64,000 bases of DNA. Origin: Streptomyces sp. V4I2 (GTDB taxonomy: Bacteria > Actinomycetota > Actinomycetes > Streptomycetales > Streptomycetaceae). Under the pieces are notes generated by a model that was not told where the DNA came from, searched no databases, and worked only from the letters and a program-made list of their open reading frames with translations. This document shows positions 5,379-18,813 of the stretch, one piece after another. The stretch lies in assembly GCF_030817655.1 (NCBI RefSeq), contig NZ_JAUSZM010000003.1, positions 8,866,001-8,930,000 on the forward strand, given 5' to 3'. How positions within the stretch are numbered: the stretch's first letter is position 1; the number at the start of each line of letters is the position of its first letter. The translations under genes and the position numbers were made by a program.

Positions 5379-6416
5379 ATGGGCGAAGCGGTGGAACTGG
5401 AGGCGGGCGGCCGGACCGTACGGCTGTCCAGCCCGGACAAGATCTTCTTCCCGGAGCGCGGCTTCACCAAGCTGGACCTCGCCCGCTACTACCAGGCCGT
5501 CGGCCCCGGCATCCTGCGCGCCCTGCGCAACCGCCCCACCACCCTGGAGCGCTATCCGGAGGGCGTGAGCGGCGAGTCCTTCTTCCAGAAGCGGGCGCCC
5601 AAGAACATGCCCGACTGGATCCCGACCGCCCACATCACCTTCCCCAGCGGCCGCAGCGCCGACGAGATGTGCCCCACCGAGGAAGCCGCCGTGCTGTGGG
5701 CCGCCCAGTTCGGCACCCTCACCTTCCACCCCTGGCCGGTGCGCCGCGACGACGTCGACCGCCCCGACGAACTCCGCATCGACCTCGACCCGCAGCCCGG
5801 CACCGACTACGGCGACGCCGTCCGCGCCGCCCACGAACTGCGCGCGGTACTGGACGAGTTCGGCGGCCTGCGCGGCTGGCCGAAGACATCCGGCGGCCGG
5901 GGCCTGCACGTCTTCGTGCCGATCGAGCCGCGCTGGACCTTCACCCAGGTGAGGCGGGCCGCGATCGCGGTCGGGCGGGAGATGGAACGCCGGATGCCGG
6001 ACCACGTGACGATCAAGTGGTGGAAGGAGGAGCGGGGCGAGCGCATCTTCATCGACTACAACCAGACGGCACGGGATCGCACGATCGCCTCCGCCTACTC
6101 CGTACGGCCGCGCCCGCACGCCCCCGTCTCGGCGCCCCTGCGCTGGGAGGAGGTGGGCGAGGCACATCCCCAGGACTTCGACATCGCGTCCATGCCGGCC
6201 CGCTTCGCCGAACTCGGAGACGTGCACGCCGACATGGACGAGCACGCCTTCTCCCTCGAGCCACTCCTGGAGCTGGCGCGCCGCGACGAGCACGATCACG
6301 GGCTCGGTGACCTGCCGTACCCGCCCGAGTATCCGAAGATGCCGGGAGAGCCCAAGCGGGTCCAGCCGAGCAAGGCGAAGAAGGCGGCGCCCCCGCCGGA
6401 GGCGCCGCCTTCCTGA
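5379..6416 (+). CDS. LigD-type NHEJ primase-polymerase (PolDom)
   Basis: A 345-aa archaeo-eukaryotic-primase-fold polymerase that adds (ribo)nucleotides during end joining and gap repair. The metal-binding DLDP motif lies at about residues 132-135, and the nucleotide-binding SGGRGLHVFVP segment follows about 40 residues later. The N-terminal KIFFPERGFTKLDLARYY block is diagnostic of LigD polymerase domains. The C-terminus is a Lys/Pro/Ala tail. I chose the ATG at 5379 because TACCGT at 5366-5371 is a good -10 element seven bases upstream, implying a leaderless transcript; an upstream in-frame GTG at 5343 has no support. It is divergent from the ligase. The last codons contain a strong hairpin that probably terminates transcription. 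Confidence 0.92.
   Translation: MGEAVELEAGGRTVRLSSPDKIFFPERGFTKLDLARYYQAVGPGILRALRNRPTTLERYPEGVSGESFFQKRAPKNMPDWIPTAHITFPSGRSADEMCPTEEAAVLWAAQFGTLTFHPWPVRRDDVDRPDELRIDLDPQPGTDYGDAVRAAHELRAVLDEFGGLRGWPKTSGGRGLHVFVPIEPRWTFTQVRRAAIAVGREMERRMPDHVTIKWWKEERGERIFIDYNQTARDRTIASAYSVRPRPHAPVSAPLRWEEVGEAHPQDFDIASMPARFAELGDVHADMDEHAFSLEPLLELARRDEHDHGLGDLPYPPEYPKMPGEPKRVQPSKAKKAAPPPEAPPS
6381..6411 (+). terminator. Terminator hairpin inside the end of the polymerase gene
   Basis: An 11-bp perfect stem (6381-6391 with 6401-6411, arm AAGGCGGCGCC) and a nine-base loop overlap the last codons of the polymerase gene, ending three bases before its TGA. It has no U-tract, which is common in Streptomyces. It insulates the gene from the convergent cupredoxin gene 14 bases away. 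Confidence 0.7.
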
Positions 6417-6429
6417 CCTGCAGCCCTGA

Positions 6430-8664
6430 CTACAGCTCCTTGATCCTGATGTCCCGGTACGAGACCACGTCCGTCGTGCCGTGCACCTGGAGCCCGACGT
6501 AGCCGGAGGCGAACCGTCGCCCGTCCGTGCCCGGGTCGTCCGAGCGGGGCGGGGTGAAGTCCTGGCCGCCGATGTTGTCGAACTCGTTGATCAGCACGCC
6601 GTTGCGGTAGACCGAGTAGTGCTGGTCGACCACCCGGATCTCGTAGTCGTTCCAGGTGCCCTTCTGGGTGACGCCGGCCCCGGCGAGCCCGACCCGGTCG
6701 AAGCCGTACACCGAGCCCGTCTTGTACATGTCCCCGTCCGGCCGGTCGAGCACCTGCACCTCGTGCCCGTACTTGATGGCGACCCACTCCGGCCGCGGCT
6801 CCTCAGGGTGGTCGTGCACCCCCGGGAACCGCACGAACACACCGGAGTTGGCGTTGCCGGTGCCCGGAGCGTCGTCACGCCACTGCAGCCTGAGCGAGAA
6901 GTCGCCGTACTTGCGCTGCGGGTACCACAGCATCCCGAGCCCGGCCTTCGTGGTGCCCGAGGTGATCGACCCGTCGGCGTTCGGCGCGAACGAACCGCCG
7001 CCCACCTGCTGCCACTTGGCGAACGACTCCGTGCTGCCGTCGAGGATCGTGCGGTAGCCCTCGGTCTGGCCGGGCTTGCCGATCCCGGACTGGCGGGCGG
7101 CCTTCTGGATCGCGTTGTACTCGCGCTGGTCGACGACTCCTTCCTTCAGCAGCTTGTCGAGGACTGTCTTGACGTGCTTCAGGAACAGCGCGTGGGACGT
7201 CCACTCCTTCTCGTCCTCGATCAACTCGTTGATCCGGCACCGGTTGTTCGTGACCCGGTTCGGCACGCCCGAGTCGACCGTGCCGACGATGACCGTCAAC
7301 CGCTCGTCGTACTCCGAACAGTTGGGCGCGGGCACCCCGCCGCCGGCCACCACCGTGAAGCTGACGGTGCGTGCCGCGGAGGTGTTGCCCGCCTTGTCGA
7401 TCGCCCGGTACGCGAGGGTGTGTGCGCCGGCACGGTCGACCACCACCGGAATGCTGTATGCAATGTACGGTCCACCGTCGAGTGAATACTCGATCCGGTC
7501 GACACCCGACCCGCCGTGTTCGTCCGTCGCACTCACGGTCACCTTGGCGTTCCCGACGTACGCCCCGTCGGAGTTCCGTGTGCCGTCCAGGGTCACGCCG
7601 GTCACCGGCGGGGTCGTGTCCTGCGGTGGCGCCGCGACGACCGTGAACTGCACGCTCTTCTCGGCGGCCACGTTGCCTGCCTTGTCGGTGGCCCGGTAGC
7701 GCACGGTGTGGGTGCCGAGCTGGTGGACCATCACGGGGGAGGTGTACGGCTGCCACGCCCCGGACCCGACGGCGTACTCGATGGTGTTGACCCCGGAGCC
7801 GGTGTCGGAGGCGCTCACGGTGACCGTCGCCATGTCGATGTACGTCCCGTCGGCGTTCTGCTCGCCGCTCACCGTCGCCGAGGTGTCGGGCGGTGCGGTG
7901 TCGTCGGAGGCCGGCGGGACGACCGTGAACGCGGCACTCTTCTCCGCCGAGACGTTGCCCGCCTTGTCGAGGGCGCGGTAGCGGATCGTGTGGCTGCCGA
8001 CCTGGTCGACGACGACCGGTGCGGTATACGGAATCCAGTCGCCCGCGTCGCCGACCGCATACTGTATGCCGTCGACCCCGGACCCGCCATCTTCGTCGGT
8101 CGCGCTGATCGCGACACTCGCCGAGCCGACGTACTCGCCCTGCGCGTTCTGCGTGCCGGTCACCTGCGCGGCCGTCTCGGGCGGTGTCGTGTCCTCGCCG
8201 CCGCCCTCGGTGACCACGAGGATGCCCTGCATCTGGCCGTGGCCGGGAATCGTGCAGTGGTAGAAGTAGCGGCCCGGCGTGAGCGTGACCTCGGCGGTGT
8301 GACGGCCGCCCTGGTCGTCGCCCGGGTTGGCGAGGATGTTGAGCTGGACGTCGCTGTTGAACTCCGGGTCGCTCGTCACGAACGTCAACGTGTGCGGCAT
8401 TCCGATGGTGTTGCCGGTCGCCACACTGTTCTCGAAGACGATCGTCGCCGCGCCCGCCACGGCCGTCGCGGGCGCCGACGTGTACTTGTCGATGTCGTTG
8501 CCGGCGGTCCAGGTGAGCACCTGGGCCGCGGCCTGCTCCTGGGGCCGCTGGCTCTCCTGCTGGGCCTGCTGCTGGGTCTGCCCCGCCGCGGGCAGCGCCT
8601 GCAGCCCGAGGATGACGAGCAGCGCGGCCAGCAGGGCCGTCCAGATTCTTCGTTGCCGTGTCAC
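6430..8664 (-). CDS. Secreted cupredoxin / Ig-like repeats / DUF1080 fusion protein
   Basis: A 744-aa secreted multidomain protein. A signal peptide (RQRRIWTALLAALLVILGLQ) is followed by a blue-copper domain at about residues 45-155. Its type 1 copper ligands are visible: His in MPHTL, then Cys, His and Met in HCTIPGHGQM. Three tandem OmpL47/Ig-like repeats of about 95 residues follow, each opening with a TTPP- or TAPP-like motif and ending in YRA(L/T/I)DKAGN. A short helical linker leads to a C-terminal DUF1080 (3-keto-disaccharide hydrolase/concanavalin-like) domain. The GTG at 8664 overlaps the stop of the ThuA/dehydrogenase gene by four bases, so the two form one operon. A natural reading is sugar oxidation by the dehydrogenase, electron transfer to the cupredoxin and hydrolysis of the oxidised glycan. 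That chain is inference. Confidence 0.88.
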   Translation of the reverse strand: MTRQRRIWTALLAALLVILGLQALPAAGQTQQQAQQESQRPQEQAAAQVLTWTAGNDIDKYTSAPATAVAGAATIVFENSVATGNTIGMPHTLTFVTSDPEFNSDVQLNILANPGDDQGGRHTAEVTLTPGRYFYHCTIPGHGQMQGILVVTEGGGEDTTPPETAAQVTGTQNAQGEYVGSASVAISATDEDGGSGVDGIQYAVGDAGDWIPYTAPVVVDQVGSHTIRYRALDKAGNVSAEKSAAFTVVPPASDDTAPPDTSATVSGEQNADGTYIDMATVTVSASDTGSGVNTIEYAVGSGAWQPYTSPVMVHQLGTHTVRYRATDKAGNVAAEKSVQFTVVAAPPQDTTPPVTGVTLDGTRNSDGAYVGNAKVTVSATDEHGGSGVDRIEYSLDGGPYIAYSIPVVVDRAGAHTLAYRAIDKAGNTSAARTVSFTVVAGGGVPAPNCSEYDERLTVIVGTVDSGVPNRVTNNRCRINELIEDEKEWTSHALFLKHVKTVLDKLLKEGVVDQREYNAIQKAARQSGIGKPGQTEGYRTILDGSTESFAKWQQVGGGSFAPNADGSITSGTTKAGLGMLWYPQRKYGDFSLRLQWRDDAPGTGNANSGVFVRFPGVHDHPEEPRPEWVAIKYGHEVQVLDRPDGDMYKTGSVYGFDRVGLAGAGVTQKGTWNDYEIRVVDQHYSVYRNGVLINEFDNIGGQDFTPPRSDDPGTDGRRFASGYVGLQVHGTTDVVSYRDIRIKEL

Positions 8665-11345: not shown

Positions 11346-12311
11346 ATGGACAGACGCGGGTTCAACCGACGAGTACTGCTGGGCGGCGCTGCTGTCGCGA
11401 CATCGTTGTCCCTGGGGCCCGAGGCCATGAGTGCCGAGGTGCCGGCGAGAACCGCCCCGGCCGGGGGCGAGGTGAAACGCATCAAGCTGTACGCCGAGAA
11501 GCTCGCCGACGGGCAGATGGGCTACGGCCTCGAGAAGGGGAAGGCGACGATCCCCGGACCGCTGATCGAACTCAACGAGGGCGACACCCTGCACATCGAG
11601 TTCGAGAACACCATGGACGTGGCGGCGAGCCTGCACGTGCACGGCCTGGACTACGAGATCTCCAGCGACGGCACGAAGCTGAACAAGAGCGATGTCGAGC
11701 CCGGCGGCATCCGCACCTACACCTGGCGCACCCACGCCCCCGGCCGCCGCAAGGACGGCACCTGGCGGGCGGGCAGCGCGGGCTACTGGCACTACCACGA
11801 CCACGTCGTGGGGACGGAGCACGGCACGGGCGGTATCCGCAAAGGCCTGTACGGGCCGGTGATCGTACGGCGCAAGGGAGATGTCCTGCCGGACCGGACC
11901 CACACCATCGTCTTCAACGACATGCTGATCAACAACAAGCCCGCGCACTCGGGCCCGAACTTCGAGGCCACGGTGGGCGATCGGGTCGAGTTCGTGGTGA
12001 TCACGCACGGCGAGTACTACCACACCTTCCATGTGCACGGTCATCGCTGGGCGGACAACCGCACGGGCATGCTCACCGGGCCCGACGACCCCAGTCAGGT
12101 CGTCGACAACAAGATCGTGGGCCCGGCGGACTCCTTCGGCTTCCAGGTGATCGCGGGGGAGGGGGTGGGCGCCGGGGCGTGGATGTACCACTGCCACGTG
12201 CAGAGCCACTCCGACATGGGGATGGTCGGCCTGTTCCTGGTGAAGAAGACGGACGGGACGATCCCGGGGTACGAGCCGCACGGGCCCCATGCGTCGCACG
12301 AGTCGCACTGA
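11346..12311 (+). CDS. Two-domain small laccase (multicopper oxidase)
   Basis: A 321-aa two-domain multicopper oxidase of the Streptomyces small-laccase (SLAC) type. It oxidises phenolics, reduces oxygen to water and works as a trimer outside the cell. The N-terminus [16 protein letters not shown] has the twin-arginine (RRxF) signature, so folded, copper-loaded export by Tat is expected. All four copper-binding blocks are present: [20 protein letters not shown] and the type 1 site [12 protein letters not shown]. The ATG at 11346 follows GGGGAG with good spacing. It is divergent from the dehydrogenase/cupredoxin operon, which also uses copper, so co-regulation is plausible. As I recall, the S. 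coelicolor orthologue (SCO6712) is a well-studied laccase. Confidence 0.95.
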
Positions 12312-12335
12312 GTCGATCGCGGGCTTTCGCGCTCC

Positions 12336-12347
12336 GAGAGCGCTCTC
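12336..12347. promoter_or_regulatory. LacI-type operator (GAGAGCGCTCTC)
   Basis: The perfect 12-bp palindrome GAGAGCGCTCTC has the central GCGC-type core favoured by Streptomyces LacI-family repressors (for example the CebR box). It lies 60 bases upstream of the LacI gene and 25 bases after the laccase stop, so autoregulation is the simplest role. Confidence 0.65.
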
Positions 12348-12406
12348 ACCCCCGCCCGATGCCCAGGGCTATCCTGATCGCCACCCCGCCGATGAGGAGC
12401 CCCGAA

Positions 12407-13441
12407 GTGACCGAGACAGCGCCGCGTCCCACGCTGGAGGCCGTGGCCGCGCGGGCGGGGGTCTCGCGGGCCACCGCCTCGCGGGTGGTCAACGGCGGGG
12501 ACGGGGTACGGGAGCCTCTCGTGGAACGAGTGCGGCGGGCGGTCGACGAACTCGGGTACGTGCCCAACCAGGCCGCCCGCAGCCTGGTGACGAAGCGGCA
12601 CGACGCCGTGGCCGTCGTGGTCGCCGAACCGGAGACCCGAGTCTTCGCCGACCCCTTCTTCGCCCTGCAACTTCGCGGCATCAGCAAGGAGTTGACGGCG
12701 CACGACAACCAGCTGGTGCTGCTGCTCACCGAGGGCCGCGACGACCACGCCCGGGTCGGCCGCTATCTCGCCGGCGGCCATGTCGACGGGGCGCTGGTGT
12801 TCTCGCTGCACCTCGACGACCCGCTGCCCGGCCTGATCCGCCGGGCCGGGATCCCGACCGTCTTCGGCGGCCGCCCCGGCTGGAGCGACGGCGACGGCGG
12901 TGACGTCGTGTACGTCGACAGCGACAACCGCGGCGGCGCCCGCGACGCCGTACGCCATCTCGTCGCCCTCGGCCGCACCCGCGTCGCGCACATCACCGGC
13001 CCGCTCGACCAGACCTCGGCGGCGGACCGGCTCGACGGATACCGGGACGTCATGGCCGACGCCGACCCGCGGCTGGTGGTGCCGGGCGACTTCACCCCGG
13101 CCGGCGGTGAGCGGGCGATGCGTGAACTCCTCGACCACCGCCCCGACGTGGACGCGGTGTTCGCGGCCAACGACCTCACCGCCGCCGGCGCCCTGCGCGT
13201 GCTGCGCGAGCACGGGCGGCGCGTGCCCGAGGACGTCGCCGTGATCGGCTTCGACGACATGCTGCCCGTCGCCGAGCAGACCGACCCACCCCTCACGACG
13301 GTCCGTCAGGACATAGAGGAAATGGGCCGGTTGATGGCCCGCCTGCTCCTGCGCGGCCCCGACGGCCCGCACACCGGCGAACAGGCGCCGCGGTCCGGTG
13401 TCGTCCTGCCGACGACCCTGGTCCGCCGCGCCTCGGCCTGA
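12407..13441 (+). CDS. LacI-family transcriptional regulator
   Basis: A 344-aa LacI/GalR repressor. The N-terminal helix-turn-helix and hinge read TLEAVAARAGVSRATASRVV, followed by the ARSLVTKR hinge. The sugar-binding periplasmic-binding-protein-like core runs from about residue 65 and includes the conserved DLTAAGALRVLREHGRRVPE and VIGFDDM segments. The GTG at 12407 has GAGGAG at 12394-12399, a better site than the ATG at 12392. No sugar transporter or hydrolase adjoins it on the same strand. The palindrome upstream suggests it controls itself; whether it also controls the laccase or the sugar-dehydrogenase operon is open. It is convergent with the VOC gene. Confidence 0.92.
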   Translation: MTETAPRPTLEAVAARAGVSRATASRVVNGGDGVREPLVERVRRAVDELGYVPNQAARSLVTKRHDAVAVVVAEPETRVFADPFFALQLRGISKELTAHDNQLVLLLTEGRDDHARVGRYLAGGHVDGALVFSLHLDDPLPGLIRRAGIPTVFGGRPGWSDGDGGDVVYVDSDNRGGARDAVRHLVALGRTRVAHITGPLDQTSAADRLDGYRDVMADADPRLVVPGDFTPAGGERAMRELLDHRPDVDAVFAANDLTAAGALRVLREHGRRVPEDVAVIGFDDMLPVAEQTDPPLTTVRQDIEEMGRLMARLLLRGPDGPHTGEQAPRSGVVLPTTLVRRASA

Positions 13442-14777: not shown

Positions 14778-15007
14778 GAGGAAATCGGCGGTGCCTGACC
14801 GACGCGGGTGAGTGGGGCGTCGTGCGTCGGGTGCAAGGCGGAGGAGGGCGTCGATGTGGAGCGTCGGCGACCGACGACAACGCCGCCAACCGGCGTGCCA
14901 TGCCCCGCGTCCGCGAAGTGATCCGCCGGACGGGCACTGGAGGCTTCGGCCGCCCTTCCTCGCCGGGCGGGCCGTAAATTCGTGCGACCGGTCGTAGGGG
15001 GCGCGGT
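14778..15007. other. Intergenic stretch without a recognisable gene
   Basis: About 230 bases separate the WhiB terminator from the tRNA promoter. They contain no convincing start with ribosome site and no domain I recognise. The stretch has the look of a Streptomyces intergenic repeat or eroded coding sequence, but that cannot be decided without a genome comparison. Confidence 0.5.
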
Positions 15008-15013
15008 TAGGAT
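15008..15013 (+). promoter_or_regulatory. -10 element of the tRNA/SDR/LRR locus
   Basis: TAGGAT lies 12 bases before the 5' end of the first tRNA, the spacing expected for a bacterial tRNA promoter with a very short leader. The -35 region, near 14985-14990, is poor (CGACCG). Confidence 0.5.
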
Positions 15014-15025
15014 CCGGGGGCGCGG

Positions 15026-15096
15026 CCGGGCGTAGCGCAGAGGCAGTCGCGCCGCCTTGCCAGGCGGATACGCCGGTTCGAATCCGGTCGTCCGGG
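15026..15096 (+). tRNA. Atypical tRNA, anticodon GCC (Gly-type)
   Basis: A 71-nt cloverleaf found by hand folding. The acceptor CCGGGCG pairs with CGTCCGG (15089-15095, one G-U pair). The D arm is GCGC-AGAGGCAG-TCGC, the anticodon stem CCGCC/GGCGG, and the T arm GCCGG-TTCGAAT-CCGGT with the canonical T loop. The anticodon loop is TTGCCA, six bases instead of seven, and reads GCC after U33. The acceptor begins C1-G72 and the discriminator is G, unlike normal bacterial tRNA-Gly. CCA is not encoded. It is the first gene of a packed tRNA-tRNA-protein-protein-tRNA locus. It could be a functional specialised tRNA, a decoy or a degenerate copy. Confidence 0.72.
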
Positions 15097-15106
15097 CCCG
15101 CGCAGG

Positions 15107-15178
15107 TGGTCGGTCGCGCAGAGGCAGGCGCGCCGCCTTCTCAGGGCGGATACGCCGGTTCGAATCCGGCCCGGCCAC
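15107..15178 (+). tRNA. Atypical tRNA, anticodon CTC (Glu-type)
   Basis: A 72-nt cloverleaf. TGGTCGG pairs with CCGGCCA in a seven-pair acceptor. The D arm GCGC-AGAGGCAG-GCGC is perfectly paired. The anticodon stem CCGCC/GGCGG carries a seven-base TTCTCAG loop with anticodon CTC at 15140-15142, and the T arm is GCCGG-TTCGAAT-CCGGC. The discriminator is C and CCA is not encoded as such. It starts ten bases after the first tRNA and ends 30 bases before the SDR ATG, so co-transcription with the protein genes is likely. Its D loop is identical to those of the other two tRNAs here. Confidence 0.78.
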
Positions 15179-15208
15179 CACAGCACGGCACCGGACGGGC
15201 GGGGACAC

Positions 15209-16537
15209 ATGCGTGAGGCACTCGGCGAGGAGGAGCTGGCCGCCTTCCACCGCACGGTCGCCAGGCTGCGGGCGCTGCCCGTCGACGACCCGGTACGCCT
15301 GCACGCCGAGCAGGTCGCCGCGTCCTTCGCGAGGGACGGGCGCCTGCGCCGCCGCAGGACACGCGGTGCCGAACTGTCGGCCGCCGACGCCGAGGTGATG
15401 GCCGCGACCGCCACCGGCGCGCCCGACCGGCGCGAGGACGCCCCTCTGGCCGTCGCCGGTACCGGCGGAGTCTTCCGCAAGCCGCGCACCTGCTATGTCT
15501 GCAAGTCGCCCTACCGACAGGTCGATTCCTTCTACCACCGCCTGTGCCCGCGCTGCGCCGCCGACAACACCGCCCGCCGCGCCCTGAGCACCGACCTGAG
15601 CGGACGCCGGGTGCTGCTCACCGGTGGCCGGGTGAAGATCGGCTTCCAGCTGGCGCTGATGATGCTGCGCGACGGCGCGGAGCTGCTGGTCACCTCGCGC
15701 TTCCCGCACGACACAGTGCGCCGCTTCCGGGCCGAGCCGGGCAGCGGGAAATGGCTCGACCGGCTGACCGTCCTCGCCGTCGACCTGCGCGACCCGCGCC
15801 AAGTACTTGGCCTGTGCGAGGAGTTGCGGCGCAAGGGCGAGCCGCTGGACGTCCTCGTCAACAACGCCGCGCAGACCGTGCGCCGCCCGCCCGAGTCGTA
15901 CGCGCTGCTCACGGCCGGCGAGTACGACGCGCTGCCCGAGGGCGCCCGGCACGCGCCCGGCTTCACCCCGATGCGGATGCTGGGCGGCGGTGCCGCGTCC
16001 CTGCCGGCAGCGCTGCGAGAGGCCGACGAGGCCGGACTGCTGCCCGACCCCTCTCCGGAGAACTCCTGGTCGGCCCGGCTCGGTGCCCTCGACCCGGCCG
16101 AGGTCCTGGAGACCCAGCTGGTCAACGCGCTTGCCCCAGCCCTGCTGTGCGACCGGCTGCTGCCCCTGCTGCTCGCCTCGCCGCACCCGCGCCGGTACGT
16201 GGTCAACGTGACCGCCGTGGAGGGCCGGTTCGCCGTCCGCAACAAGATGCCCGGCCACCCGCACACCAACATGGCCAAAGCCGCCCTCAACATGCTCACC
16301 CGCACCAGCGCCGCCGAACTCGCCGAGCAGGGCGTGCACATGTGCGCCGTCGACACCGGCTGGATCACCGACGAGAACCCGGCGCCGAAGAAGGCCCGGA
16401 TGGCGGACGCGGGCTTCCGTACGCCCCTGGACATCGTGGACGGCGCGGCCCGCGTGTACGACCCGATCGTGCGCGGCGAGGCGGGGGACCCCGTGTCCGG
16501 GGTGTTCCTCAAGGACTACCGGGAGGCTCAGTGGTGA
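15209..16537 (+). CDS. Zinc-ribbon-containing SDR-like protein
   Basis: A 442-aa protein. An N-terminal helical region (1-80) is followed by a zinc ribbon with Cys95, Cys98, Cys113 and Cys116 (CYVC...CPRC), then a short-chain dehydrogenase/reductase Rossmann fold from about residue 132. The nucleotide loop is TGGRVKIG (138-145) and the NNAAQ motif is at 218-222. The catalytic YxxxK tyrosine is replaced: the segment reads PHTNMAKAAL, with Thr353 where Tyr should be and Lys357 retained. Classical SDR chemistry is therefore doubtful, although cofactor binding looks intact. An extra 60-70-residue insert (about 228-295) is present. It sits 30 bases after an atypical tRNA and overlaps the LRR gene by four bases (GTGA). 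The zinc ribbon and setting suggest RNA binding, but that is inference. Confidence 0.82.
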   Translation: MREALGEEELAAFHRTVARLRALPVDDPVRLHAEQVAASFARDGRLRRRRTRGAELSAADAEVMAATATGAPDRREDAPLAVAGTGGVFRKPRTCYVCKSPYRQVDSFYHRLCPRCAADNTARRALSTDLSGRRVLLTGGRVKIGFQLALMMLRDGAELLVTSRFPHDTVRRFRAEPGSGKWLDRLTVLAVDLRDPRQVLGLCEELRRKGEPLDVLVNNAAQTVRRPPESYALLTAGEYDALPEGARHAPGFTPMRMLGGGAASLPAALREADEAGLLPDPSPENSWSARLGALDPAEVLETQLVNALAPALLCDRLLPLLLASPHPRRYVVNVTAVEGRFAVRNKMPGHPHTNMAKAALNMLTRTSAAELAEQGVHMCAVDTGWITDENPAPKKARMADAGFRTPLDIVDGAARVYDPIVRGEAGDPVSGVFLKDYREAQW

Positions 16538-17721
16538 GCGAACAACCCGTGACGGGCTTCGCGGGTGTCCCGCACGTCGTGCCGCGCCCGCGCGCCGAAC
16601 TCGCCCCGCTCCTTGACTGGTTGCGGTCCGGCCGCCCGGCCGGGGAGCGCCTGGACTTCACGGCCGGTACGGCGCTGCCCGACGGCCGCCTCGACCTGTG
16701 CAAGCAGGGACTGGGTGCCCAGGGCGCCGCCCTGGTCGCCGAAGCGCTCTCCCAAGGCCCCTCTCCCGTACGGCACCTGCTGCTCGGCACCGACGCGCTC
16801 GGCGACGCCGGCGCCACCGCGGTGGCCGGCTCGCACACCAGTGTCGAGACGCTCTACCTCGGCTGCAACAACATCACCGCGGGCGGCGCCTGCCGCATCG
16901 CCGACCAGCTGCGCGCGTCCCCGCAGGTGGTCACCGGCGTCTGGCTGAAGCGCAACCCGCTGGGCGCCGGGGGCGGCCGGGCGGCGGCCGAACTCGTCGA
17001 GTCGGCCCGGTCGTTGCGCACCCTCGACCTCGTCCAGACCGGCCTCGACCCCGCGGGCACCGCCGTCCTCGCCGACGCCCTGCTCGCGGCCGCCGGCAAC
17101 GGACGCCGGATCGAGCGGCTCTTCGTCGGCGGCAACCCACTGGGGGAGGCCGGGGCGGTACCGCTGGCCGCCGTACTCGCGGCCGGGGCGATCGGCGAAC
17201 TGTACGTCTCCGCGGCCGGGTTGGGTGACGCGGGCGCCCAGCACCTTGCCCACGCGCTGGAGCGGGCACCGTACGGACGGCTCACCCGCCTGTCCGTCGC
17301 CGCCAACGGTATCGGTCCGCGGGCCGCGGCCCGGCTGGTGGCGGCGGCGACCATGGCCGGTGTCACCCTGCTCGACCTCGGCCGGGTCCGGGCGGCGGCG
17401 GTACTGGGCGCGGCGGACAACCACATCGACATGCCCGCCGCCGAGGCGATCGCCGAGGCCCTCGCGGGCACCGCCCACCGCCTCACCCACCTCGTCCTCA
17501 CCCACACCGGCATGCGCAGCCGCGAGGCCCACCGCCTCCTCGACACCGCACCCCGCGCGGGCACGGCCACCCGCTTCGTCCTCGGCCGGTCCATCGCCAC
17601 CAGCGTCAAACGCCGCCTGGAGGCCCTCAGCGCCCACGTCCCGCTCCCGGCGGTCCCGGCCGACGTGGCAGCCGTACGCAGCGTGCACAGAACAGCCCCC
17701 CGGCCGCAGCCGGGGGGCTAG
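16534..17721 (+). CDS. Ribonuclease-inhibitor-type leucine-rich-repeat protein
   Basis: A 395-aa cytoplasmic protein with no signal peptide. At least seven leucine-rich repeats of about 28 residues fill residues 60-340, alternating strand and helix as in eukaryotic ribonuclease inhibitor and RanGAP. Examples are LRTLDLVQTGLDPAGTAVLA, IERLFVGGNPLGEAGAVPLA and LTRLSVAANGIGPRAAARLV. Such horseshoes bind proteins or RNA. The GTG at 16534 overlaps the SDR stop (GTGA) and has GGGAGG seven bases upstream, so the two proteins are probably made together. The last codons (RPQPGG) are formed by a nine-pair hairpin. An atypical tRNA follows 16 bases after the stop. RI-type LRR proteins are uncommon in bacteria; function unknown. 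Confidence 0.85.
   Translation: MSEQPVTGFAGVPHVVPRPRAELAPLLDWLRSGRPAGERLDFTAGTALPDGRLDLCKQGLGAQGAALVAEALSQGPSPVRHLLLGTDALGDAGATAVAGSHTSVETLYLGCNNITAGGACRIADQLRASPQVVTGVWLKRNPLGAGGGRAAAELVESARSLRTLDLVQTGLDPAGTAVLADALLAAAGNGRRIERLFVGGNPLGEAGAVPLAAVLAAGAIGELYVSAAGLGDAGAQHLAHALERAPYGRLTRLSVAANGIGPRAAARLVAAATMAGVTLLDLGRVRAAAVLGAADNHIDMPAAEAIAEALAGTAHRLTHLVLTHTGMRSREAHRLLDTAPRAGTATRFVLGRSIATSVKRRLEALSAHVPLPAVPADVAAVRSVHRTAPRPQPGG
17696..17717 (+). terminator. Strong hairpin overlapping the LRR gene's last codons
   Basis: CCCCCCGGC (17696-17704), tetraloop CGCA and GCCGGGGGG (17709-17717) form a nine-pair GC stem just before the TAG stop. It may end the SDR-LRR mRNA or act as a processing or pausing signal before the third tRNA, which starts 21 bases later. 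There is no U-tract. Confidence 0.6.
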
Positions 17722-17737
17722 TGTCTGACGTCAAGGG

Positions 17738-17811
17738 CGGGGTCGTAGCGCAGAGGCAGACGCGCTGGTCTCCAGAACCGGAACACGCTGGTTCGAATCC
17801 AGCCGCCCCGC
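17738..17811 (+). tRNA. Atypical tRNA, anticodon CCA (Trp-type)
   Basis: About 74 nt. The acceptor CGGGGT pairs with GCCCCG (six pairs, with a C-C mismatch at the seventh). The D arm is GCGC-AGAGGCAG-ACGC with only three good pairs. The anticodon stem CTGGT/ACCGG carries the seven-base loop CTCCAGA with anticodon CCA at 17772-17774, and the T arm is GCTGG-TTCGAAT-CCAGC. The D loop is identical to that of the two upstream tRNAs. The weakened acceptor makes normal tryptophanylation uncertain. It lies 16 bases after the LRR gene and 25 bases before the convergent desaturase stop. A standard tRNA-Trp should exist elsewhere in the genome. Confidence 0.7.
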
Positions 17812-17835
17812 CCCCTCTGGAACGACGTGGCTGTG

Positions 17836-18813
17836 TCAGCCGGCCGCGCGGGCCGCCATGCGCGCCTTGCGCGCGGCGAGCTTCTCGTCGAACTTCGACG
17901 CCTCCGCGTCCAGGCCGCCCATGTACAGGCCGAGTTCCTCCTGGGCCTTGAGGCCCTCGGGGCCGAGACCGTCGATCTCCAGGACCCTCAGGAAGCGCAG
18001 GACGGGCTGGATGACGTCGTCGTGGTGGATGCGCATGTTGTAGACCTCGCCGATCGCCATCTGCGCGGCGGCCCGCTCGAAGCCGGGCATGCCGTGGCCG
18101 GGCATCCGGAAGTTCACGATCACGTCGCGCACCGCCTGCATCGTCTGGTCGGGCGCGAGGTCGAAGGCCGCCTTCAGCAGGTTGCGGTAGAAGACCATGT
18201 GCAGGTTCTCGTCGGTCGCGATGCGCGCCAGCATGCGGTCGCAGACCGGGTCGCCGGACTGGTGGCCGGTGTTGCGGTGCGAGACGCGGGTGGCCAGCTC
18301 CTGGAAGGCGACGTACGCGACCGAGTGCAGCATCGAGTGGCGGTTGTCCGACTCGAAGCCCTCCGCCATGTGGGCCATGCGGAACTGCTCCAGCTTGTCC
18401 GGGTCGACCGCGCGCGAGGCGAGCAGGTAGTCGCGCATCACGATGCCGTGCCGGCCCTCCTCCGCGGTCCAGCGGTGCACCCAGGTGCCCCAGGCGCCGT
18501 CACGGCCGAAGAGGGAGGCGATCTCGTGGTGGTAGCTGGGGAGGTTGTCCTCCGTGAGAAGGTTGACCACCAGTGCGATCCGGCCGAGCTCGGTGACCTT
18601 GGACTGCTGCTTGTCCCACGGCTCGCCGTCCTCGAAGAGGCCGGGGAAGTTGCGCGCGTCGCTCCACGGGACGTACTCGTGCGGCATCCAGTCCTTGGCG
18701 ACCTTCAGGTGCCGGTTGAGCTCCTGTTCGACGACTTCCTCCAGCGCGTACAGCAGGCGGGCGTCGGTCCAGGCGGAGGACGGGCTGCCGAGGTGAGGGG
18801 AAGTGATCGTCAC
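17836..18813 (-). CDS. desA: Acyl-ACP desaturase (soluble di-iron)
   Basis: A 325-aa soluble di-iron acyl-ACP desaturase that introduces a cis double bond into fatty acyl-ACP and so adjusts membrane fluidity. The carboxylate/histidine motifs are AEEGRHG (about residue 117) and DENLHM (about 203), and the family start TDARLLYALEEVVEQELNRH is well conserved. The GTG at 18813 has GGAG six bases upstream. The promoter region contains three tandem 15-bp palindromes (18877-18921), so a dedicated repressor, probably of TetR type, is expected. No candidate regulator is adjacent. The gene is monocistronic. Confidence 0.93.
   Translation of the reverse strand: MTITSPHLGSPSSAWTDARLLYALEEVVEQELNRHLKVAKDWMPHEYVPWSDARNFPGLFEDGEPWDKQQSKVTELGRIALVVNLLTEDNLPSYHHEIASLFGRDGAWGTWVHRWTAEEGRHGIVMRDYLLASRAVDPDKLEQFRMAHMAEGFESDNRHSMLHSVAYVAFQELATRVSHRNTGHQSGDPVCDRMLARIATDENLHMVFYRNLLKAAFDLAPDQTMQAVRDVIVNFRMPGHGMPGFERAAAQMAIGEVYNMRIHHDDVIQPVLRFLRVLEIDGLGPEGLKAQEELGLYMGGLDAEASKFDEKLAARKARMAARAAG

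Follow-up and report, generated by a model that had tools for sequence, protein, structure and literature searches.

A tRNA-shaped RNA family with exchangeable anticodons, linked to a ribonuclease-inhibitor-type leucine-rich repeat protein: a candidate RNA-protein system of a novel type found in a minority of Streptomyces

The identity of transfer RNAs (tRNAs) is among the most conserved features of life. The described system closest to the locus reported here is a gene cluster of Streptomyces sp. SPC6 (Chen et al. 2022), in which one tRNA gene, tRNA-Asp-AUC, stands with four neighbours. According to the available text of that report, the cluster occurs in 32 genomes and is possibly an integrative relic, its tRNA is expressed with A34 unmodified, and the tRNA under its native promoter in S. 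coelicolor led to expression of a GAT6-eGFP reporter (PMC9262613). tRNA-ProX of Streptomyces and Kitasatospora is presented, in the accessible parts of two papers, as a single body with anticodons of different amino acids (PMC10365949, PMC11415595). The MoxR-vWA ternary conflict systems, as far as the accessible text describes them, combine a MoxR-type AAA protein, a VWA protein and a variable third component (PMC7159879), and the trn operon of Anabaena PCC 7120 is introduced in its abstract as a set of extra tRNA genes beside the housekeeping set, tied to translational stress (PMC10272220). Here we describe a locus of Streptomyces sp. V4I2 (RefSeq assembly GCF_030817655.1, contig NZ_JAUSZM010000003.1, forward-strand positions 8,866,001 to 8,930,000; this whole stretch of 64,000 nucleotides is called the window, and positions are counted from its first letter). 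Three atypical tRNA genes, a zinc-ribbon gene resembling the short-chain dehydrogenases/reductases (SDR) and a gene for a ribonuclease-inhibitor (RI)-type leucine-rich repeat (LRR) protein lie there head to tail at 15026-17814, all on the + strand. We show that a tRNA-shaped RNA family is genetically coupled, in a conserved chromosomal cassette, to the RI-type LRR protein, and that many relatives add an AAA ATPase of the MoxR type and a metallopeptidase/VWA protein of the DUF2201 type. Cloverleaf, bulged D stem and D/T elbow of the RNAs are kept while anticodon and discriminator base vary freely. The arrangement suggests that a minority of Streptomyces possess an RNA-protein system of a novel type.

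A preliminary description of the window had set out the same succession of genes, which ARAGORN, the Rfam tRNA model RF00005, open reading frames (ORFs) and Pfam confirm, with spacings that agree within two bases. The parts are as follows:

15007-15013, + strand: -10-like element TTAGGAT, read by eye, 12 bases 5′ of the first tRNA
15026-15098, + strand: tRNA of array slot 1, with body CCGGGCG/CGTCCGG and a Gly-like 6-nt loop TTGCCA (TTGCCCA and TTGCTCA in relatives); ARAGORN, RF00005
15107-15179, + strand: tRNA of array slot 2, with anticodon CTC (Glu-like), a short variable loop and one bulged base in the D stem; ARAGORN, RF00005
15209-16537, + strand: zinc-ribbon SDR-like protein of 442 aa, with the usual catalytic Ser and Tyr replaced by Ala336 and Thr353; ORF, Pfam adh_short/adh_short_C2
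16534-17721, + strand: RI-type LRR protein of 395 aa, belonging to group A as defined below; ORF, Pfam LRR_6
17737-17814, + strand: tRNA of array slot 3, with Trp-like anticodon CCA and an irregular acceptor stem; ARAGORN, RF00005

The three tRNAs obtain 44.7, 51.6 and 41.4 bits with RF00005, above the gathering score of 29, and are thus recognised as cloverleaves; these scores are among the lowest of the 74 tRNA matches in the genome. Slot 1 had been put down as a Gly-type GCC tRNA. Its loop is Gly-like, but ARAGORN reports a 6-nt anticodon loop labelled '??? gc', one base shorter than the loop of the close relatives L069 and L070, and the short loop is possibly incipient decay or a further loop variant. 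As to the promoter proposed before the first tRNA, the TTAGGAT element stands at that place; a sigma-70 consensus scan of 14900-17900 called no promoter, TTAGGAT included. Motifs resembling it were also read by eye 5′ of the array in L040, L041 and L042, and close 5′ of the SDR start in some tRNA-less loci (L045, L048). At the other end of the locus, a GC-rich 11-bp hairpin (17694-17719, loop CGCA) spans the last LRR codons just 5′ of the Trp-like tRNA, and by eye no T run follows it.

Linkage was surveyed in 392 Streptomyces genomes using a strict pattern of the D arm and T arm for the tRNA family and a threshold of E ≤ 1e-150 for the short SDR. Most counts given here and below cover related species and so are not independent, and the genome collection overlaps with the set of related loci. 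The tRNA pattern was found at 91 places in 41 genomes, and a reversed-pattern control gave zero matches in the results shown for the 392 genomes. The short SDR is present in 54 genomes, 37 of which also hold the tRNA pattern (Fisher 3.5e-34, kinship ignored). By a scripted count, 84 of the 91 tRNA places lie at most 7 kb from an SDR. The other seven comprise three at L181, whose SDR was missed by the threshold, one next to the truncated SDR of L179, one in a genome that has the SDR on a different contig, one at L280 that precedes its SDR by 9.2 kb, and a lone one (L178). The last is an Asp GTC tRNA at 6715-6791 (- strand) of its locus with no cassette genes in the 14 kb fetched; its genome, G227, also carries a group B LRR locus. 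Across the class, the pattern occurs in 7 of 394 genomes, all of the same genus, and the only one newly met (G638) has an SDR beside its tRNAs. Genomes of other genera of the class gave no match (0/354) with the strict pattern, which misses diverged relatives: loci of Kitasatospora, Actinacidiphila and Allokutzneria do carry family tRNAs.

The same linkage is seen around individual genes. Of the related loci, taken as the best 80 of 137 relatives found (L069-L148), 63 have at least one family tRNA in the 700 bp preceding the SDR and 54 have at least two; a Trp-like tRNA stands 3′ of the SDR in 54. Kitasatospora and Actinacidiphila loci have longer arrays, of three to five upstream tRNAs in L134, L142 and L147. 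Some of their anticodons are unusual, for example AAC in L142 and L147, and non-Trp tRNAs lie 3′ of the SDR in L142 and L148. In genome G388 the usually Trp-like 3′ tRNA bears a GCA anticodon (L185, 10239-10316); the third slot can thus swap too.

Relatives of the LRR protein are present in 61 of the 392 genomes and fall into two groups, 24 genomes with group A, to which the window belongs, and 37 with group B (38 places, 40-50% identity); the two groups share 42% identity over the length. All 24 group A genomes fall within the 41 that have the tRNA pattern, and related LRR loci with enough flank carry at least one family tRNA in 38 of 38 cases, upstream in 37. Among SDR genomes that do not have the group A LRR gene, 17 of 32 are without the strict tRNA pattern and 15 have it. 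In group B, 35 of the 38 places were fetched, and each of the 35 has one family tRNA, which precedes the LRR match by 168-271 bp and whose body hardly varies. Genes for an ankyrin protein, MoxR and DUF2201 follow the LRR gene on the same strand in 33 of the 34 group B loci with room for them. These results show a conserved tRNA-LRR unit in two architectures, joined to MoxR and DUF2201 in almost every group B locus and in many of group A. The expectation that tRNAs would adjoin homologous loci is thus borne out; SDR genes without a group A LRR gene are frequent exceptions.

The predicted model of the LRR protein (pLDDT 86.5) is a horseshoe whose best match in the PDB is bovine ribonuclease inhibitor, in agreement with the RI-type assignment made from the sequence; NLR proteins are among the top matches. 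A conserved in-frame TGA in the LRR family was also considered and proved to be the ordinary terminal stop in the ten loci examined.

MoxR-like AAA and DUF2201 genes are both present in 35 of the 80 related group A loci. The composition first proposed was right as to the recurring tRNA, SDR and LRR genes, but the wider system often adds this pair, which is absent from the genome of the window: the AAA protein has no match there, so the window does not show the group B operon with ankyrin, MoxR and DUF2201 genes downstream. In group A, the VWA part scores under its Pfam cut-off and the bpMoxR match likewise. The presence of these protein modules goes with the state of the array. Among the 75 loci with enough flank (5 of the 80 were dropped), at least two upstream tRNAs are found in 43 of the 47 with LRR or AAA plus DUF2201, versus 7 of the 28 with neither (p 4e-9, kinship ignored). 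A count by eye found decayed upstream copies, defined by a model R1 score below 50 bits, in 5 of the 28 loci with neither module versus 1 of the 47 with a module. In L080 the AAA/DUF2201 genes lie on the opposite strand, between the LRR gene and the Trp-like tRNA. The same locus encodes, at 11897-12772 (- strand), a conserved 291-aa protein that has no Pfam match, is found mostly where AAA/DUF2201 is present and may belong to that module; in the window, the interval from the Trp-like tRNA to the desaturase gene shows no such protein.

The RNAs themselves are conserved as structures, which counters the objection foreseen at the outset that they might be neither transcribed nor conserved. In an alignment of 28 gap-free group A tRNAs, picked from 94 unique upstream sequences, 96.6% of cells are paired, and both-sided changes number 90 cells versus 30 in shuffles. 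Pairing column 13 with 21 rather than 22 raises the paired cells to 98.6%, which indicates one bulged base in the D stem. The C13-G21 pair is present in 28 of 28 group A sequences, and the bulged-D-arm signature in all 35 group B loci. D loop and T loop are nearly invariant in the group A alignment. The acceptor type follows the slot rather than the anticodon: in two-tRNA arrays (not de-duplicated), CC is found in 49 of 50 first tRNAs and G in 50 of 50 second tRNAs.

On this constant body the anticodon is exchanged. Eight pairs of tRNAs, representing four distinct bodies, differ in the anticodon alone (CTC/GTC, GCC/GGC, CCC/GCC), with Asp/Glu and Gly/Ala exchanges among them, while the closest pair of canonical tRNAs with different anticodons in the genome of the window is nine edits apart. 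Mapped on the SDR protein tree, the anticodon of the nearest tRNA changed at least 30 times among 63 loci, and for the first tRNA the minimum is 23 changes among 53 loci. Both counts would be too high if loci or genomes had exchanged tRNAs, and the nearest-tRNA count mixes slots where loci hold one or three tRNAs. The fastest single anticodon position changed 13 times in slot 1 (44 loci) and 15 times in slot 2 (55 loci). The means per anticodon position are 11 and 10 changes, compared with 3.1 and 2.4 at other unpaired positions of slots 1 and 2, and discriminator position 73 changed 13 and 11 times. Measured on eight window genes, six array anticodons read six of the seven commonest codons, which argues against frequent use of the RNAs in a mischarged state.

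The exchanged anticodons are often not accompanied by the matching identity elements. Charging is typically governed by G3:U70 for Ala, a long variable arm for Ser and U73 for Cys and Gly, and the canonical tRNAs of the same genome agree with these rules. The upstream copies have the Ala G3:U70 in 1 of 29 cases, the Ser long arm in 0 of 15, T73 in 0 of 6 Cys-like and in 1 of 28 Gly-like cases. Among 137 upstream tRNAs, T33 is kept in 126, A33 and A34 are each seen in 3, and the pyrimidine C37 occurs in 33. The likeness of the anticodon arms to canonical arms of matching anticodon exceeds that of shuffles (0/1000) and is best for Trp (47/49) and Glu (17/20). Acceptor arms show such a resemblance too, and some slot-2 acceptor stems equal or resemble the canonical tRNA-Asp stem; the T arm of the upstream copies does not follow it.

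The SDR-like protein was correctly recognised as carrying a zinc ribbon: Cys 95, 98, 113 and 116 are invariant in 27 aligned proteins. Pfam assigns adh_short; the enzyme part needs qualification. The active site of classical SDR enzymes consists of Ser, Tyr and Lys. Here Lys357 is kept, but Ala336 and Thr353 take the places of Ser and Tyr in 27 of 27 proteins, a long paralogue included. The predicted model (mean pLDDT 75) still matches SDR structures. The genome of the window holds a longer SDR paralogue elsewhere with no tRNA nearby. At L009 such a longer zinc-ribbon paralogue (6113-7669) has a likewise altered active site, and its neighbouring ORFs resemble glycogen-metabolism genes. A relative of the short or the long kind is present in 91 of 101 genomes of the genus.

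We infer, tentatively, that the array RNAs serve as baits or guards in a surveillance machine centred on the LRR protein, and that decoding is not their main role. This reading is favoured by the combination of a free anticodon and discriminator, missing identity elements, anticodons of common codons, an RI-type LRR protein and a MoxR/VWA-like pair. It is possible, though less likely than not, that bait RNAs with exchangeable anticodons on an LRR-bound scaffold keep watch specifically over the busiest tRNAs and signal damage, by way of the LRR protein, to the MoxR/metallopeptidase-VWA pair. On the bait reading, the RNAs would be excised from the leader of the SDR-LRR transcript, and their constant elbow would be bound either by the LRR protein or by the zinc-ribbon SDR, whose active site is altered. 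The anticodon loop and 3′ end, which would in part copy the arms of common cellular tRNAs, would remain exposed to enzymes that attack tRNAs: anticodon nucleases, or toxins with which phages or competing bacteria modify tRNAs. If a bait were lost or captured, the LRR protein would pass this on to the AAA/DUF2201 pair in genomes that have one. Several slots with different anticodons would allow several tRNA species to be watched, and the window would represent a reduced form in which the pair is missing.

A number of observations weigh against this interpretation. Positions 26, 32, 38 and 73 and the variable loop change about as fast as the anticodon, and therefore the anticodon rate alone is no proof of positive selection: relaxed constraint would explain it just as well as an arms race would, and diversifying selection, which we considered, is inseparable from it by a comparison of rates. 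The canonical A73 is kept in 17 of 26 Glu-like copies and the canonical G73 in 13 of 25 Asp-like ones. By anticodon arm, the copies match best to the canonical tRNA of their own anticodon in 0 of 27 Gly-like, 1 of 13 Ser-like and 1 of 7 Cys-like cases, and the match is also patchy for Ala-GGC (9/22), Ala-CGC (0/5) and Asp (5/17). In the eight window genes, the Ser-, Cys- and Trp-like anticodons read uncommon codons, and in group B the anticodon arms are misshapen and ATC is kept in 28 of 35. Among the protein modules, seven loci keep at least two upstream tRNAs with neither LRR nor AAA/DUF2201, and a phylogeny-aware test of co-occurrence agrees in direction with the uncorrected linkage but is not significant, there being too few independent pairs. 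The AAA/DUF2201 pair (61-84% identical) also occurs with no tRNA, LRR or SDR gene in four genomes (L158-L161), which rules it out as an obligate partner of the tRNAs. PADLOC has no model for the SDR, LRR or DUF2201 proteins and gives only partial ATPase or ankyrin matches for the rest. Finally, the accessible text on the group B-type tRNA reports that it is expressed like a normal tRNA and raised a GAT-rich reporter, a result that favours decoding, although that text does not show which amino acid was inserted (PMC9262613).

The strongest competitor is thus that these are dedicated decoding tRNAs, providing spare capacity for busy codons under stress or causing dual-identity mistranslation, with the acceptor fixing the amino acid and the anticodon picking the codon. 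We regard it as a serious possibility, if still an unlikely one. It draws on the published expression of the SPC6 tRNA with its unmodified A34 and of GAT6-eGFP in S. coelicolor (PMC9262613, as far as its accessible text goes), on tRNA-ProX as a precedent for one body with several anticodons (the available parts of PMC10365949 and PMC11415595), on the kept T33, on the partly fitting Asp and Glu elements, and on the Asp-like stems of some slot-2 copies. Several anticodons read the commonest codons, as expected of spare capacity. On the other hand, mistranslation would strike those very codons, the elements required for charging are missing in Ala- and Ser-like copies, C37 is found in about a quarter of the copies as counted above, and discriminator and anticodon vary freely. 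No synthetase is present among the cassette proteins scanned, and decoding leaves the coupling to LRR, MoxR and DUF2201 unexplained. Bait and decoding could also be joined, in the form of a functional tRNA that is itself guarded.

Old tRNA copies, perhaps relics of an integrative element, the interpretation given in the available text of PMC9262613, could instead have been kept in the leader by chance or as processing sites. Their position between the -10-like element and the SDR start, the tRNA-less loci that start close behind such an element (by eye), and the frequency of module loss and decayed copies fit this view. We consider it improbable, given the strong compensatory change, the conserved slots, an LRR linkage that extends across 42% identity and a Trp-like tRNA lying on the 3′ side in 54 of 80 loci; the LRR protein, moreover, has no relative in the viral contigs and no match in the plasmids or phages searched, and the SDR is met in plasmids at only four places, at 45-53% identity. 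Slighter still is the chance of a tRNA-dependent chemistry, in which charged RNAs would give up their aminoacyl group off the ribosome to cassette proteins for biosynthesis or protein tagging. Zinc-ribbon Rossmann-fold and metallopeptidase-like proteins do share the cassette, and several anticodons are those of small or acidic residues, plus Trp. However, the SDR is without its usual catalytic Ser and Tyr, no transferase or ligase is found among the proteins scanned, SDR relatives of one kind or the other are present in 91 of 101 genomes, the long paralogue has no tRNA nearby, and identity elements are missing. Of the alternatives named at the outset, chance neighbours are ruled out by the tRNA-SDR linkage in 392 genomes and by the group B LRR loci. 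A phage remnant or plasmid cargo, though perhaps the ancestry of the locus, is contradicted as its main setting by zero LRR relatives in viral contigs and zero matches in the plasmid and phage collections searched.

The locus of the window is flanked 5′ by a WhiB gene and 3′ by an acyl-desaturase gene on the opposite strand (Pfam). The WhiB gene is present in 62 of the 80 related loci and at least part of the desaturase gene in 54, and therefore many related loci occupy the same chromosomal position. Inside the desaturase gene and antisense to it lies a match to the Rfam ASdes small RNA (RF01781, 68.3 bits; 18392-18459, + strand), also found in L042, L045, L047 and L050; it may merely reflect conserved desaturase coding sequence.

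Within one genus and beside a defined protein cassette, a tRNA family has retained its body and repeatedly swapped its anticodon from one amino acid to another. Should the RNAs prove to be baits, they would represent a new principle of sensing, by which bacteria guard translation with an RNA sensor that diversifies. Should they decode, they would provide a sizeable natural collection of tRNAs in which the anticodon is at odds with the identity elements. In both cases the answer would bear on the published tRNA-Asp-AUC, which boosts antibiotics according to the available text (PMC9262613).

The claim that no system of this composition had been described holds for the whole arrangement, of which we found no description in the literature searched (few subscription journals or bioRxiv preprints are covered), but must be narrowed, since a sister cluster with one tRNA and four neighbours is published (PMC9262613, accessible text). 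Among more distant systems, the trn operon differs in its 26 tRNA genes on a megaplasmid, and its abstract makes no mention of LRR, MoxR, DUF2201 or anticodon swapping (PMC10272220). Compared with the MoxR-vWA ternary conflict systems, the VWA protein of the present family is of the DUF2201 type with a metallopeptidase part and is accompanied by an RI-type LRR protein and tRNA genes, a set that the available text does not describe (PMC7159879); the window itself, unlike those systems, has no AAA/DUF2201 pair. tRNA-ProX is distinguished, in the accessible text, by A33 together with A34 and by a neighbouring ProRSx (PMC10365949, PMC11415595), whereas the window family shows each of these bases in only 3 of 137 copies. 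The SPC6 cluster is closest. Its text, as available, describes no arrays, anticodon swapping, SDR branch or Trp-like 3′ tRNA, and the window belongs to group A. Its anticodon arm as described there, with three G:C pairs, two unpaired positions, purine 32 and C33, fits the commonest group B arm (PMC9262613), and its gene order of LRR, ankyrin, MoxR and DUF2201 fits the group B operon, a correspondence drawn from the described arm and gene order. With the group B type of cluster the family of the window shares a tRNA with a bulged D arm upstream of a homologous LRR gene.

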